Both the position numbers and the translations under genes were made by a program. Shown piece after piece: positions 3,691 to 59,106 of a DNA stretch of 64,000 nt. Numbering within the stretch: the first letter of the stretch is position 1; each line of letters begins with the position of its first letter. Under the pieces are notes generated by a model. It was not told the DNA's origin and did no database searches. It saw nothing but the letters and a program-made list of their open reading frames with translations. The DNA comes from Gemmatimonadota bacterium (lineage in GTDB: Bacteria > Gemmatimonadota > Gemmatimonadetes > Gemmatimonadales > Gemmatimonadaceae), in assembly GCA_002737115.1 (NCBI GenBank), contig NSHR01000011.1:1-64000 (forward strand), given 5' to 3'.

Positions 3691-3736
3691 GGAAAAATCC
3701 ACAGAGTTCTGGCTGTTGCTGTTGTTTAGTGTTGCG
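3691..3736. repeat. Half-element C related to elements A/B
   Basis: TCCACAGAGTTCTGGCTGTTGCTGTTGTTTAGTGTTGCG; reverse complement CACTAAACAACAGCAACAGCCAGAACTCTGTGGA matches the head of elements A and B. Confidence 0.75.
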
Positions 3737-11610: not shown

Positions 11611-11670
11611 TGGTTCGATACCACGTGCCACTCCACTGGAAACTCCGCGAGGGGTTCCGAGATCTCATGG

Positions 11671-12100
11671 AAAGTCGCCGGCCTATAAGCCGGGTTCTGT
11701 CAGTGCTGATATACGCGAGCGTATCCCAACACCGGACGGTCATTCCTCTCGGCGTGCAGTCGCCCACACGCTCCAGCAGCCTACCCGCGACTCGACGTCT
11801 TGCGACGTCCTTGCGAGACGGGTCATCTCTCGCCGCTTATTTGGCCTTGCTCCGACTGGGGTTTACCGAGCCACCTTCGTTACCGAAGGCGCGGTGGGCT
11901 CTTACCCCACCCTTTCACCCTTACCGCAGCATCGGTTGCCCAATGACACGGCGGTTTGCTTTCTGTTGCACTGTCCGTCACACGAAGCTCACGCCGCATG
12001 TGCCCAGGCGTTACCTGGCAGTCTACCCTGTGGAGCCCGGACTTTCCTCGGTGTCTGAGCTTTCGCCCAAACATCGCGACCATCCGGCCGGCGACCAATC
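11671..12100 (-). ncRNA. rnpB: RNase P RNA (bacterial class A)
   Basis: Minus strand contains GAGGAAAGTCCGGGCTCC near 5' end and CCCGGCTTATAGGCCGGCGACTTT at 3' end; terminal P1 helix GGTCGCCGGCC / GGCCGGCGAC pairs. Confidence 0.93.
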
Positions 12101-29547: not shown

Positions 29548-29705
29548 GCTAACAGCGAATAGGAACGGCAACAGCCAGAACACGGAGATCACGGATAGAC
29601 GGAAAAAACACGGATAAGAGAAAAGCGCCGTTCATCTTATCCGTGTCTTTTCGGTGGAATCCTTTGTAATCCGTGTTCTGGCAGTTGCAGTTGCAGTTGT
29701 TTAGC
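29548..29705. repeat. Imperfect palindromic intergenic element A (ACACGGATAAG family)
   Basis: GCTAACAGC...CCAGAACACGGA...ACACGGATAAGA / TCTTATCCGTGTC...TCCGTGTTCTGG...GTTTAGC. Confidence 0.85.
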
Positions 29706-38419: not shown

Positions 38420-38470
38420 GCTGTTCTTCGCGCCCTTCGCGGCCCTTCGCGCCCTTCGCGCGAACCGCGG
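38420..38470. repeat. TTCTTCGCG/CCCTTCGCG direct-repeat intergenic element F (half of element-E type)
   Basis: GCTGTTCTTCGCGCCCTTCGCGGCCCTTCGCGCCCTTCGCGCGAACCGCGG. Confidence 0.75.
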
Positions 38471-42259: not shown

Positions 42260-43507
42260 GTGATCTCGCGCCTCCTCAGGAACCTGACTTTTCAGGTGCT
42301 CGTCGCGGTCTCGCTCGGCATTCTGCTGGGCGTCGTAGCCCCTGACACCGCCAAGTCGCTCAAGCCTCTCGGCGACACGTTTATCAATCTCGTGAAGATG
42401 GTGATCACGCCGATCATCTTCCTCACCATCGTGCACGGCATCGCGAGTATGGCGGATCTGCGCAAGCTCGGACGTGTAGGCGGCAAGGCGCTGTTGTATT
42501 TCGAGTTGGTGTCCACGCTCGCGTTGGCCATCGGCCTCGTCATTGTGAACGTGACGAAGCCAGGTGCGGGTCTCGATATCTCGAAGATGGCGATGGGCGA
42601 CGTGAGCAAGTACACGGCGGCGGGGGCACAACAGAGTACGCTCGAGTTCATGCTTCATATTGTGCCCAGCAACGTCGTCGCGGCGTTTGCGAGCGGTGAG
42701 CTGCTGCCCGTGGTGTTCTTTTCCGTGCTCTTCGGTATCGCCCTCACGGCGGTCGGCGATGCGGGGCGTGATATCGCCGATCTGCTCGTGCGCTTTCAGG
42801 CCGTGTTCTTCAAGATCGTCGGCATGGTGATGGTGCTCGCACCGATCGGTGCCTTCGGCGCGATGGCGTACACCGTGGGCGCGTTCGGCCTCAAGACGCT
42901 CGTTCCCCTCGCGCGTCTCATGCTTGATGTGTACCTCACCATGGCGATTTTCGTGTTCGTGGTGCTCGGCCTGATCTGCCGCGCCTACGGCTTTCGCATC
43001 TGGAAATTCATACGCTTTATCAAGGACGAAATTCTGCTGGTGCTCGGGACGTCGAGCTCCGAAGCGGCGCTGCCGCGCATGCTGCAGAAGCTCGAACAGT
43101 ACGGCTGCGCGAAGCCGGTCGTGGGCCTAGTGATTCCCACTGGCTATTCGTTCAACCTCGACGGCACAAGCATCTATCTGTCGATGGCCACGATCTTCAT
43201 TGCGCAGGTGTACAAAGTCGATCTGAGCATTTCACAACAGCTTGGGCTGCTCGGCATTCTCATGCTCACGAGCAAGGGCGCCGCCGGCGTGACAGGCTCG
43301 GGCTTCATCGTCTTGGCCAGCACCCTCGCCGCCACCCGCACGGTGCCGGTAGAAGGCGTGGCGCTATTGCTTGGCGTGGACCGCTTCATGTCCGAAGCAC
43401 GCGCGATCACGAACCTGATCGGTAACGGCGTGGCCACGTTGGTGGTGTCGCGGAGTGAAGGGGCGTTCGACGACGCGAAAATGGCGGCCGCGGATGCAAC
43501 CGTGTGA
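42260..43507 (+). CDS. Dicarboxylate/amino acid:cation symporter (DAACS)
   Basis: FQVLVAVSLGILLGVVAPDTAKSLKPLGDTFINLVKMVITPIIFLTIVHGIASM; GTSSSEAALPRML; PTGYSFNLDGTSIYL. Confidence 0.93.
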   Translation: MISRLLRNLTFQVLVAVSLGILLGVVAPDTAKSLKPLGDTFINLVKMVITPIIFLTIVHGIASMADLRKLGRVGGKALLYFELVSTLALAIGLVIVNVTKPGAGLDISKMAMGDVSKYTAAGAQQSTLEFMLHIVPSNVVAAFASGELLPVVFFSVLFGIALTAVGDAGRDIADLLVRFQAVFFKIVGMVMVLAPIGAFGAMAYTVGAFGLKTLVPLARLMLDVYLTMAIFVFVVLGLICRAYGFRIWKFIRFIKDEILLVLGTSSSEAALPRMLQKLEQYGCAKPVVGLVIPTGYSFNLDGTSIYLSMATIFIAQVYKVDLSISQQLGLLGILMLTSKGAAGVTGSGFIVLASTLAATRTVPVEGVALLLGVDRFMSEARAITNLIGNGVATLVVSRSEGAFDDAKMAAADATV

Positions 43508-43643
43508 TTTCACACCGGAAGTAGTTCGGGGGCCAACGTGTGTGCGTCGGGCGGAAGTACCGCTGCGATCGGTCCGTACGCACCGCTTCCGCTAGACTCA
43601 CAAACATTCACCCCCCAATCAGCTTCCCCCCGGAAATCACACC

Positions 43644-52694: not shown

Positions 52695-52762
52695 TGGAAA
52701 GGTCCACCACCTGATTGGTGGATGCGCGGGCGATCGGTGAGACTCGCATTAGTTTGCATGCC

Positions 52763-53977
52763 ATGCGCACTCATCTCCTCGACTCGCGCCAGGGCTTTGC
52801 CGGCGACGATCTGATCTTCACGCTCAACTCGGCCGCCCAGCAACGGGCGGCCACGGGAGCGCCAGTTATCAACGCCACCGTGGGCGCGTTGCTTGACGAC
52901 CACGGCAAGCTGGTGGTGCACGACAGCGTGATGGCGCTCTGGCGCGAACTCACCCCCATGGAGATCGCACCCTACGCGCCGATCGCCGGTGACCCGGCCT
53001 TTCTGCTGGCGCTGACCCAGCGGCACTGGCCGCAGCTCACGAGCCCCGGTGTGGCCGTGGCCACGCCCGGTGGATCGGGGGCGCTGGCGCTGACACTCAA
53101 GAACTTTGTGGAGCGCGGGCAGGCCATCCTTACCGCGGCGCCCTTCTGGGGGCCGTACGCCACGATCACCGCCGAAGCCGCCGTGCGCCTGGAAACGGTA
53201 CCGTACCCAGCAGTCGGCGAGGCGCTCGACGTAGGCGCGTGGGAAGCGAAGGCGCGCGACCTGCTCGAGGAACAGGGGCGGTTGCTGGTGTGGCTGAATG
53301 ACCCGTGTCATAACCCGACGGGCCGCAGCTTGTCGCGCGACGATCGCCGCACGCTGCTGTCGATGCTGCGCGACATCGCGTCGCAGGGCCCCGTCACGCT
53401 GTTGCTGGATTTCGCGTATCTCGACTATGCGCGTAATCCCGACGACGTGCGCGAAGCGCTCGAGGATTACGCGGCGTTCGGCGCCGAACAGGCGGTGCTG
53501 GTGTGCGCGAGTCTGAGTCTCAGCAAGGCGTTCACGCTGTACGGATCACGTGCTGGCGCCCTGGTGTTTCCGTGGAGCAGCGACCCGGCGCTGAAAGGGG
53601 CGCTGGTGTCGAGCTGCCGTGGCACGTGGAGTAATTGCGCGCGTGCCCCCATGAGTGTGCTGCTGCGCATGACCAAGAGCGAAACCGCGCAGGCTGCCTT
53701 GGCCGCCGAACATGCGCATTGGCGCCGTGTGCTCACGGAGCGCGTGGGGGCGCTTGACGCGGCGCTCAAAGCCGAAGGACTTCCCGGCGCGCCGTGGGAC
53801 GGTGGATTCTTCGTGACCTTGCCGGCGCCGCCGGATCCATTTGCCGTGTGCGAAACGCTCAAGGCCGCCGACGTGTTCGTGGTGCCCATGCCGGAGGGAC
53901 TGCGGGTGGGCGTGTGCGGGATGAAGGCGGCGGATACGGGGCGGTTTGCAGCAGCGTATGCGGCGAGTATTGCCTAG
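52763..53977 (+). CDS. Class I/II PLP-dependent aminotransferase
   Basis: WLNDPCHNPTGRSLSRDD; LLLDFAYLDYARNP; ASLSLSKAFTLYGSRAGAL (PLP-Lys region). Confidence 0.9.
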   Translation: MRTHLLDSRQGFAGDDLIFTLNSAAQQRAATGAPVINATVGALLDDHGKLVVHDSVMALWRELTPMEIAPYAPIAGDPAFLLALTQRHWPQLTSPGVAVATPGGSGALALTLKNFVERGQAILTAAPFWGPYATITAEAAVRLETVPYPAVGEALDVGAWEAKARDLLEEQGRLLVWLNDPCHNPTGRSLSRDDRRTLLSMLRDIASQGPVTLLLDFAYLDYARNPDDVREALEDYAAFGAEQAVLVCASLSLSKAFTLYGSRAGALVFPWSSDPALKGALVSSCRGTWSNCARAPMSVLLRMTKSETAQAALAAEHAHWRRVLTERVGALDAALKAEGLPGAPWDGGFFVTLPAPPDPFAVCETLKAADVFVVPMPEGLRVGVCGMKAADTGRFAAAYAASIA

Positions 53978-53989
53978 GCGAGGTAGATC

Positions 53990-54130
53990 GCTAACTGCCA
54001 GAACACGGATGACACCGATTGAAATGAAACAACACGGATAAGCCAAAAGCGCTTTTGGCTTATCCGTGTTGTTTTCGTGCAATCCGTGGTCTCCGTGTTC
54101 TGGCTGTTGCCGTTGCTGTTGCTGTTACGG
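53990..54130. repeat. Palindromic intergenic element B with a perfect 24+24 bp core
   Basis: AAACAACACGGATAAGCCAAAAGC (54027-54050) immediately followed by its exact reverse complement (54051-54074); flanking CCAGAACACGGA/TCCGTGTTCTGG arms. Confidence 0.92.
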
Positions 54131-54142
54131 TCTCACCAAAGC

Positions 54143-56773
54143 TCAGTAGCTGCCACCAAGCAGCACCGCATTCGCAAAAATCGGCAGCGTTCCCCGCAGC
54201 TGATCCCGGTACACCGGGTCATGCGCGAACATGATCACGCGGCCGCGTCCGGCGCGCTCGGTCCACAAGTACGGCGAGCCGCCAAGCTTGGCCGCCGCCT
54301 CGGGCCAGTAGTAGCCCGCAATCCGCACCCGCGCCGCCGGGGCAAAGCGCATCACGGCGTCGCCGGCCGCGAGGTCCTTGGGGATCGTGAACACACGGTC
54401 GCTGTTCACGAACACCGGCATTTCACGGTTCAACACGCCGGCCATGAGCGGCGACAGCGAGTCGACCGTGGCCCGCGCCAGCACACCCGGCAGGCTGCCC
54501 GGCAACGGCGCGCCACCAGTGCTGTCGGCCCGCGTGGAGTCGCGCTTCACCCGCGTGCGCACCAGCCCTACGCGCTCCTGCGCCACCCACGCACTCGCCG
54601 CGTCCATGGTGATCAGTACACCGCCGTTGCGCACCCACTCGGCCAGGCGCGCGCGCCCGGCGTCGCCCAGCACACGATCGAGGGCGCCGGCCTGCACTGA
54701 TGGCACGATGAGCGTGTTGAAGGCGCTCATGTCGCCGCTCGCCACAAAGTTTGCGTCCACCAACGTGCTGGCGTAGCCGATGCGCTGATCCATCGCGTAC
54801 CACGCGAAGCCGAACGACGACCCGTTCACTGGCGCGCCACCCAGCAACGCCACCTTGGGGCGCTGCACGGGGATCACCGAGTTGCTGCCCAGGTCGGTGC
54901 CTTCGTCCACACCGGCCGACGGAATGGAGGCCAGCTGTGCGCCCGCTTCAGCGGCGCGACGCATCACCACGTCGTGTACGTCGGCGCGATTGAGCGCGGT
55001 GCGAATCACGAAGGCGCCGTGGGGAAACTTGTTGGTTTTCGACGTGAACGAGTACGGCGCGTACCACACGCGCACCGAGTCGGTGAGCAACGACGCCAGC
55101 AAGCGGATGCTCGACTCGCTCCCCGGCGCGAAGGCGTAGCCGTACACCGAGCGCGCCGGCGCTGCGAACGTGCGCGGCATGTCGGTCACTATGGCCAGTG
55201 CGCTGGGCACCGCGGCCAACGCGTACGCATCCACCCGCCACGCCAACGGCAACGACCACGCGGTCATGTCGTAGAAACGATTGCGCTGGCCGGTGCGACG
55301 GAGTTCGAGTTCGAACTTGATGAACGCCGAATCCAGCGCGGCGTCGGGTTCCAGCAACGCCTTGGCCAGATAGCCCTGCGGCTGCGCGAGGTCGACCACA
55401 TAGTTGCCGGCCTTGGCCGTCATCATGGGCACCGTACCGCCGGCGTACATGGTGGCGTTGGCCACTGCAACATCAGCGGTGAGCCGCTGCACCTCGATGC
55501 CGTTGTCGCGGAGCTTCTGCACCAGCGAATCGGCCCGACCCTGCGCATCACGCACCAGCATCACCGCTCGCAACGGTCCCTTGGCGTGCAACGTGATAGC
55601 ATTCGCGCGCGCCGCCGCGTAGTCACGCACCAAATCCGTACGACGGCGGGCCGACGTCTTCACCGTGGCCCACTCGGCCGTGAAGTGCTCGAACGCTGCT
55701 TGTTTTAGCGTGCGCAGTGTGCCGTCGTTGCGCATCACGGCACCGCCTGAACTCGACGCACTCTCGAACAACATACCGATCGCGCCCGTGAGCATGGGCC
55801 ACCCTTCGCCGTAGCCCGGATAGAACGAGTCGTAGCCTTCGCGCCGGAAGTACGACCAGCCGTGCACGTCGAACGCCGCCCCGTGGGCCGCCGCGAAAAT
55901 GTCGAACCACTTGGGCAGGTGCGCGGGATTGTTCTTGTTGTCCGGCTCACGCGGCGGTGCGAAGTAAAAGCTCGAGCTGCTCCCCTGCTCGTGCAGGTCG
56001 ACGGCCACATGCGGCCACCACTTCATGTAGGTGCTCACACGCCCCTTCGATTCGGGGTGCGACTGCGCATACCAATCGCGGTTGAGATCGAAGTAGTAGT
56101 GCGACGTGCGCGGCCCCGGCCACGACCCGGCGTTGTTCAGCGCGCCGGGCTCACTGGCCACACCCTGTGAGCTCCCGTAGCGCTCGATGTCGTGGGTGTG
56201 CCGCTCGCGTCCGTCCGGATTCTCGTTGGGGTCGATCAGCACCACGGTGCTGTCGAGCGCCAGCTTGGTGTCGGCATCGGTGCCGGCCGCCAGTTGATAC
56301 AGCAGCGCCAGTCCCGCTTCGGCCCCCGACGCCTCGCCACCATGCACGGAGTGCTCAAGCCACACGATGCTGGGAATGCGCTTCACGGCCGCATCGATAT
56401 CCCCTGCACTGGCCCCCCGCGGATCAGCGATACGCTTGGCATCCCGCTGGATCTCGGCCAACCGCGCCATGTTGGCTTCGCTCGAGATGGTAATGATGAG
56501 CATCTCGCGCCCCTCGAACGTGCGGGCGACGGTGTCCACCTTCACCCGCTTCGACGCGGCGGCAATGCGCTCGATGTAGCGCATCATGGCGCGCTGCGGC
56601 GTAAAGCGGGCGCCGATATCGTAGCCCAGGATCTGCGCGGGAGTGGGCACGCGCGGATCGAACGTCGCGCCGGGGTCGGCGAAGGCATGCTGTGCCTGCG
56701 CCGGGCTGGCCGCGAGAGCGCCGGCGAGTGCCGCAGCGCCTAGCGTGGTGCGGAAGAATGATGAGGTAGACAT
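54143..56773 (-). CDS. M14 family zinc carboxypeptidase, secreted
   Basis: SIVWLEHSVHGGEASGAEAGLALLYQLAAG (HxxE); LIDPNENPDGRERHTHDIERYG; DLNRDWYAQSHPESKGRVSTYMKWWPHVAVDLHEQGSSSSFYFAPP. Confidence 0.92.
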   Translation of the reverse strand: MSTSSFFRTTLGAAALAGALAASPAQAQHAFADPGATFDPRVPTPAQILGYDIGARFTPQRAMMRYIERIAAASKRVKVDTVARTFEGREMLIITISSEANMARLAEIQRDAKRIADPRGASAGDIDAAVKRIPSIVWLEHSVHGGEASGAEAGLALLYQLAAGTDADTKLALDSTVVLIDPNENPDGRERHTHDIERYGSSQGVASEPGALNNAGSWPGPRTSHYYFDLNRDWYAQSHPESKGRVSTYMKWWPHVAVDLHEQGSSSSFYFAPPREPDNKNNPAHLPKWFDIFAAAHGAAFDVHGWSYFRREGYDSFYPGYGEGWPMLTGAIGMLFESASSSGGAVMRNDGTLRTLKQAAFEHFTAEWATVKTSARRRTDLVRDYAAARANAITLHAKGPLRAVMLVRDAQGRADSLVQKLRDNGIEVQRLTADVAVANATMYAGGTVPMMTAKAGNYVVDLAQPQGYLAKALLEPDAALDSAFIKFELELRRTGQRNRFYDMTAWSLPLAWRVDAYALAAVPSALAIVTDMPRTFAAPARSVYGYAFAPGSESSIRLLASLLTDSVRVWYAPYSFTSKTNKFPHGAFVIRTALNRADVHDVVMRRAAEAGAQLASIPSAGVDEGTDLGSNSVIPVQRPKVALLGGAPVNGSSFGFAWYAMDQRIGYASTLVDANFVASGDMSAFNTLIVPSVQAGALDRVLGDAGRARLAEWVRNGGVLITMDAASAWVAQERVGLVRTRVKRDSTRADSTGGAPLPGSLPGVLARATVDSLSPLMAGVLNREMPVFVNSDRVFTIPKDLAAGDAVMRFAPAARVRIAGYYWPEAAAKLGGSPYLWTERAGRGRVIMFAHDPVYRDQLRGTLPIFANAVLLGGSY

Positions 56774-56801
56774 ACCGACAACTTCGCGCCGTTCGGGAGG
56801 A

Positions 56802-57003
56802 ATAAACAGCGTTACCACGGATTTTCACGAATGACCGCGGATGCGATCTGTGCGCGCCGGGAGGGTCTGCGCACGATGGCAGATTGCTTTCGTGGTTAAA
56901 CATCAAAAAGCGTTCTACCGGGACCGCGCGGCCTCAGTCGCACTCACCGCATCGATCCGCGGATATTCGTGAAAATTCGCGGTAGAGCTGTTTGCTGTTA
57001 CCG
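56802..57003. repeat. Inverted-repeat intergenic element D (GCGGATTTTCACGAAT type)
   Basis: Left ATAAACAGCGTTACCACGGATTTTCACGAATGACCGCGGATGCG vs reverse complement of right GGTAACAGCAAACAGCTCTACCGCGAATTTTCACGAATATCCGCGGATCG. Confidence 0.85.
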
Positions 57004-58961: not shown

Positions 58962-59106
58962 TTGCAGTTCTTCGCGCATCTTCGCGAACCTTCGCGAGCT
59001 TCGCGTGAACCTACAGACTCGCTGCGACTGAGATCTGTCCGAATGCACTAAACAGCTCGTTCACGCGAAGTCCGCGAAGAACGCGGAGGCACGCGAAGAA
59101 CTGCAA
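58962..59106. repeat. Inverted-repeat intergenic element E (TTCTTCGCG type)
   Basis: TTGCAGTTCTTCGCGCATCTTCGCGAACCTTCGCGAGCTTCGCGTGAAC (58962-59010) vs reverse complement of 59059-59106 TTGCAGTTCTTCGCGTGCCTCCGCGTTCTTCGCGGACTTCGCGTGAAC. Confidence 0.9.

Follow-up and report, generated by a model that had tools for sequence, protein, structure and literature searches.

The intergenic palindromes of the window (the whole 64-kb stretch of DNA analysed here) are probably gene-less derivatives of tiny mobile elements whose sole gene encodes a PD-(D/E)XK nuclease of the GxxExxY family. The best reading of the data is a gene–repeat system with a logic like that of REP elements and RAYT, served by an unrelated enzyme.

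Palindromes of the window

A gapped-palindrome scan of the window (score ≥18) recovered exactly four elements (A, B, D and E; Table 1), all intergenic and each at gene 3′ ends, against none in a mirror-sequence control. The first-pass annotation had listed six elements beside stop codons: these four are strong palindromes, whereas C and F are a remnant and a single arm, respectively. A fifth, weaker palindrome absent from that list was assigned to its family through a match of G029_338186 to the L405 flanks, together with inspection. Element B fills most of a convergent intergenic region of 165 bp, and the 48-bp perfect zero-loop palindrome that had been claimed within it proved exact; it is the longest in the element (AAACAACACGGATAAGCCAAAAGC/GCTTTTGGCTTATCCGTGTTGTTT). 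B and the copy adjoining a GxxExxY gene of its own genome are 82.9% identical along 117 nt. An Rfam search of the window, thresholded at the gathering score, found no RNA family at the elements, its sole match being the RNase P RNA gene (bacterial class A, 11670–12095, − strand).

Table 1. Coordinates of the palindromic elements in the window and of the features around element B
Feature	Position	Strand	Description
Element C	3691–3736		Right-end remnant of an A/B-type element (GTTCTGGCTGTTGCTGTTG); 19-nt match
Element A	29548–29705		Same family as B; AAC(A/T)GC hexamers flank both sides
Element F	38420–38470		E-type single arm: four CGCGAAG iterons plus GCTGTT; no full palindrome
Fifth, weaker palindrome	43502–43641		Family forms the long terminal inverted repeats enclosing GxxExxY gene G000:C33:19835-20167
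Gene upstream of B	52718–53977	+	Stop codon at 53975–53977
Element B	53994–54128		Nested imperfect palindrome of the A/B ('F1') family; outer GCTGTT hexamers
Core of B	54027–54074		48-bp perfect zero-loop palindrome; terminator-like on the − strand
GCTGTTGCCGTTGCTGTTGCTGTTA hexamer module of B	54103–54127	+	The 'head' of the first-pass annotation, there read on the opposite strand; varies across species
Gene convergent on B	54143–56818	−	3′ end abuts B
Element D	56802–57003		Arms CACGGAT-TTT-CACGAAT-GAC-CGCGGAT; related copy adjoins GxxExxY gene G000:C2:6915-7247
Element E	58962–59106		CGCGAAG iteron arms; related copy adjoins GxxExxY gene G000:C11:19521-19871

The palindromes, mostly about 110–220 bp long, have three arm types of one design, in which 7-mers of approximately CRCRRAK are repeated every 9–10 bp. 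The shared head TAAACARCAGC proposed earlier occurs as an exact motif once in the window; the feature that the elements truly share is a variable array of hexamers outside the arms (AACNGC on the left, GCNGTT on the right), the copy number of which differs between species. The accompanying proposal of a single class with a common head and diverging stems holds for the common outer module and the interchangeable arms, but the elements fall into several families, and every family has a gene-linked copy of its own. An integron attC origin, prompted by the AAC...GTT ends, was set aside, as the outermost bases seem not to conform to the GTTRRRY of attC sites.

Dispersal and genomic position

Copies of the A/B family extend beyond the window, as had been anticipated: searches with B as the query, on which the own-genome counts rest, placed them at about 15 places in the source assembly (2.05 Mb, 57% complete). 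The family was found in 12 of 43 good-quality relatives, with a patchy distribution across congeners; most of the genomes are fragmented MAGs, and assemblies break at palindromic DNA. In 400 kb of the complete congener G029, a sequence-independent scan detected 34 palindromes (mirror control, 0). Set against the available intergenic regions, these amounted to 17/23 for convergent, 13/92 for tandem and 4/43 for divergent regions (convergent versus divergent, Fisher P = 1.4 × 10⁻⁷); the tallies count palindromes rather than occupied regions, a few of which hold two, and the gene calls behind the statistics come from a simple custom caller. The 12 palindromes of G021 comprised eight convergent, four tandem and no divergent cases. 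The REP/BIME-like placement at gene 3′ ends suggested by the first-pass annotation is thereby borne out, with strong enrichment of convergent regions in G029.

Linkage to GxxExxY genes

The own-genome copy on contig 66 begins within the stop codon of a GxxExxY gene (TAA overlaps AACTGC) that belongs to TIGR04256/PF13366; GxxExxY genes scored 118–127 bits (cut-off 35) and 119–132 bits (cut-off 22) against the family profiles. PF13366 is present in 29 of the 30 genomes of the genus, the source genome included (only G012 is without it), and is rare in the remainder of the order. Each of the four GxxExxY genes of the source genome is associated with a palindrome family: the contig 66 gene with A/B, that of C2 with D and that of C11 with E/F, and the fourth (C33) lies between long inverted repeats that belong to the fifth palindrome's family. 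Among dispersed palindromes, 42 of 48 matched GxxExxY flanks and none of the 48 matched equal control flanks. A palindrome lies at −40 to +60 of the stop codon in 33 of 85 GxxExxY genes, compared with 68 of 682 ordinary genes (P = 1 × 10⁻¹⁰) and 7 of 133 neighbouring genes (P = 6 × 10⁻¹⁰).

Genes and repeats are paired by family. Five of the six GxxExxY genes of G029 match families dispersed nearby, and on the GxxExxY tree the genes cluster according to palindrome family (14 changes, whereas each of 200 shuffles required 28 or more), with iteron labels assigned post hoc, after the data had been seen, and with part of the signal reflecting vertical inheritance of orthologous gene–palindrome loci. 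F1-type genes are confined to F1-rich genomes (6/9 versus 0/20, P = 2 × 10⁻⁴; groups set by hand). At one locus of G021 (L323), a GxxExxY gene is flanked by two cognate palindromes, the upstream one seemingly cut by the end of an apparent integrase-core transposase gene.

Terminal inverted repeats and recurrence across phyla

Terminal inverted repeats (TIRs) flank 31 of 109 GxxExxY genes and 5 of 1,381 controls (combined P = 2 × 10⁻³²). At a TIR score of ≥18, the counts were 20/88 for the genus, 8/12 for cross-phylum loci (among the matches listed) and 3/9 for plasmids, versus 3/679 for ordinary genes and 2/702 for random windows; the cross-phylum loci were selected for CACGGAT iterons and their TIR rates are therefore not population rates, and the plasmid and viral genes, chosen by protein alone, are few. 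About a third of the congeneric GxxExxY genes had neither TIR nor palindrome at threshold.

Scanning a genome collection for three CACGGAT iterons returned at least 119 stretches, with about one expected from a simple base-count estimate of chance; according to record titles, they derive from Verrucomicrobia, Planctomycetota, Acidobacteria, Chloroflexi, Bacteroidetes, Proteobacteria, Gemmatimonadetes, archaea and others. Among the matches listed, 59 of 156 fall in strong palindromes and, of the 13 GxxExxY genes present at the 119 cross-phylum loci, 11 are no more than 200 bp from iterons (random, 13%). Several of these genes sit strictly within inverted arms; in several phyla the gene is located inside the palindrome, as at L211, L251, L264, L266 and L314, at C33 of the source genome, and on Bernardetia and Bacteroides plasmids (in Bacteroides finegoldii as CACAGAGGACGCAGAGGACACGGAG–gene–inverse, with a similar arrangement in Bernardetia). 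Four GxxExxY genes on viral contigs comprised two with TIRs, one with direct repeats and one with a single iteron arm. Only GxxExxY lies between the TIRs of the gene-bearing copies examined. At L313, L211, L251 and L306, GxxExxY start codons lie inside the left iteron array, so that the N-terminal residues (MNTD, MDTD, MNHGDTEAQRQ) are iteron-encoded.

The GxxExxY protein

Three residues, E43 (of the GxxExxY motif), D82 and K94, are invariant across 12 cross-phylum proteins and correspond to an intact predicted PD-(D/E)XK active site. A sequence search against solved structures gave no convincing match; the structural model is confident (pLDDT 91), and the nearest solved folds are the Cas4-like SSO0001 (E = 3.8 × 10⁻⁵), MGME1 and LHK-Exo, with lambda exonuclease lower. 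An annotation as anti-phage defence was not borne out, as PADLOC gave no match. A literature search by family name and accession yielded passing mentions of GxxExxY/PF13366 and no account of a function or repeat association.

Turnover at orthologous sites

At an orthologous intergenic site, congeners often hold a different family. The site of element B is occupied by the A/B family in the source genome, G015, G017 and G024, by another family in G011 and G014, and by further families in G004, G009, G018 and G021; GGGGTCAGAGTC-type repeats were seen there at L096 and L100 (G018, G006). The site of element D carries type D in the source genome and the A/B family in two close relatives (G015 and G017), and that of element E carries CGCGAAG iterons in the source genome and CGCAGAG-type iterons in G014, G015, G017 and G020. 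When 11 A/B-family sites were compared with four relatives, the family was mostly kept and some remnants were collapsed. At the C8 site (G000:C8:17810-17975, L024), the inner loop of the element has one orientation in the source genome and G025 and the opposite one in G015, G017 and G024, which suggests that the arms have recombined. The C33 element is missing at the matching site in five congeners, where another family sits.

Two further sites differ in form. A mini palindrome of about 40 bp (GCCAGAACACGGATCCGTGTTCTGGC) at G000:C7:5412-5470 (L035), where G015, G017, G025 and G029 have full elements, is either a collapsed core or an assembly artefact, and L414 (G011:C22:1-600) is a tandem array of another palindrome family at a place where the source genome has a GxxExxY gene and an A/B element. 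Comparison of the orthologues revealed neither a target-site duplication nor a clean empty site, nor any recent insertion. Most A/B-family sites are common to close relatives, which indicates that activity is low or old.

Proposed origin of the palindromes

We propose that a full element of about 0.5–0.6 kb would consist of [AACNGC module]–(7-mer iterons, period 9–10)–GxxExxY–(inverted iterons)–[GCNGTT module], with a GxxExxY protein (about 125 residues) as its sole gene product, and that loss of the gene would leave a near-perfect palindrome. Each nuclease lineage is paired with an iteron sequence of its own. Cognate arms, extruded as hairpins or cruciforms, may be recognised and cut by the nuclease, and repair after cutting could copy or exchange elements between sites; this would fit the palindromy, the loop inversion and the replacement of cassettes. 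Build-up at convergent and tandem 3′ ends may represent tolerated insertion, and some copies, such as B, might double as bidirectional terminators. Whether such elements constitute an undescribed class of minimal mobile element, with a PD-(D/E)XK gene within an iteron palindrome and transposase-free spread through cognate hairpin or cruciform cutting, we regard as an evenly balanced question.

The strong enrichment at convergent 3′ ends would also suit bidirectional terminators or mRNA 3′ stabilisers maintained by the host, with GxxExxY as a domesticated protein acting on DNA or RNA hairpins and turnover as functional replacement. The different families held by related species at one site, the terminator-like core of B and the modest covariation of the arms (33 of 48 complementary versus 21.9 expected) point in the same direction. 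A terminator scan of B, D and E, however, matched B alone, with fewer matches in total than in shuffles; arm identity can also be produced by arm-to-arm copying, loop inversion was observed, and the TIRs of the nuclease genes and the recurrence across phyla are left unexplained. We consider this account unlikely. A slightly less likely scenario still, in our judgement, is that the palindromes are older, with another origin or mobiliser, and were colonised as safe sites by a homing-type nuclease, in the manner of intron endonucleases. Within the genus, the gene often adjoins a complete palindrome instead of being enclosed by it, gene-less copies far outnumber gene-bearing ones, and the PD-(D/E)XK fold also occurs in some homing endonucleases (the catalytic domain 3r3p gave a weak fold match, E = 0.07). 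Against this stand the family-specific pairing and the restriction of F1-type genes to F1-rich genomes, which together suggest that the gene drives the family; nor was an alternative mobiliser identified, Y1 being the one searched.

Mobilisation by a RAYT (Y1/HUH) transposase, the partner sought on the basis of the first-pass annotation, is hardly credible. Palindromy and position are REP-like and some congeners have Y1 genes, but Y1_Tnp (PF01797) had no match in the source genome (57% complete) or in the complete genomes G021, G028 and G029, of which G029 is element-rich, and the gene that proved to be linked is GxxExxY (PF13366). Across the 61 genomes searched, Y1 was unconnected with element-rich genomes. 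The elements (about 110–220 bp) also exceed the REP, defined as a palindrome of 20–40 bp with a GTAG or CGTC tag (PMC3733652).

Relation to known systems and significance

In REP/BIME–RAYT ('REPtron') and TIR/TIRYT ('TIRtron') systems, palindromes are dispersed downstream of genes, between tandem or convergent genes, and a genome has several families, for each of which a specific gene copy lies between REPs or TIRs (PMC3733652). The palindromes described here share the 3′-end placement, the multiplicity of families and the family-specific gene. Unlike in the REPtron, the gene linked to the palindromes encodes a PD-(D/E)XK nuclease and not an HUH/Y1 transposase; unlike REPs, the palindromes are longer, with iterons of period 9–10 and, by inspection, AACNGC/GCNGTT ends. 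As in MITEs, TIR-only derivatives share TIRs with a gene-bearing element, but the gene-bearing copies examined show no DDE transposase, no target duplication was seen, and the arms nearly meet to form a palindrome. The linked gene is a member of the GxxExxY family (TIGR04256; Pfam PDDEXK_3, PF13366), names that imply no function or link to repeats. Its nuclease fold is held in common with PD-(D/E)XK homing endonucleases and Cas4/lambda-exonuclease-like nucleases, in contrast to which GxxExxY is a minimal domain standing alone between iteron repeats of its own.

If the proposed origin is correct, cognate binding, hairpin cutting and joint gain or loss of gene and repeat are predicted, and an annotated but unexplained family would gain a testable role. 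Widespread intergenic palindromes would gain an origin, and CACGGAT-, CACAGAG- and CGCGAAG-type intergenic repeats across many phyla would gain a source. A REP-like system, with loci in many phyla, would then be run by a nuclease fold not tied to REP elements.
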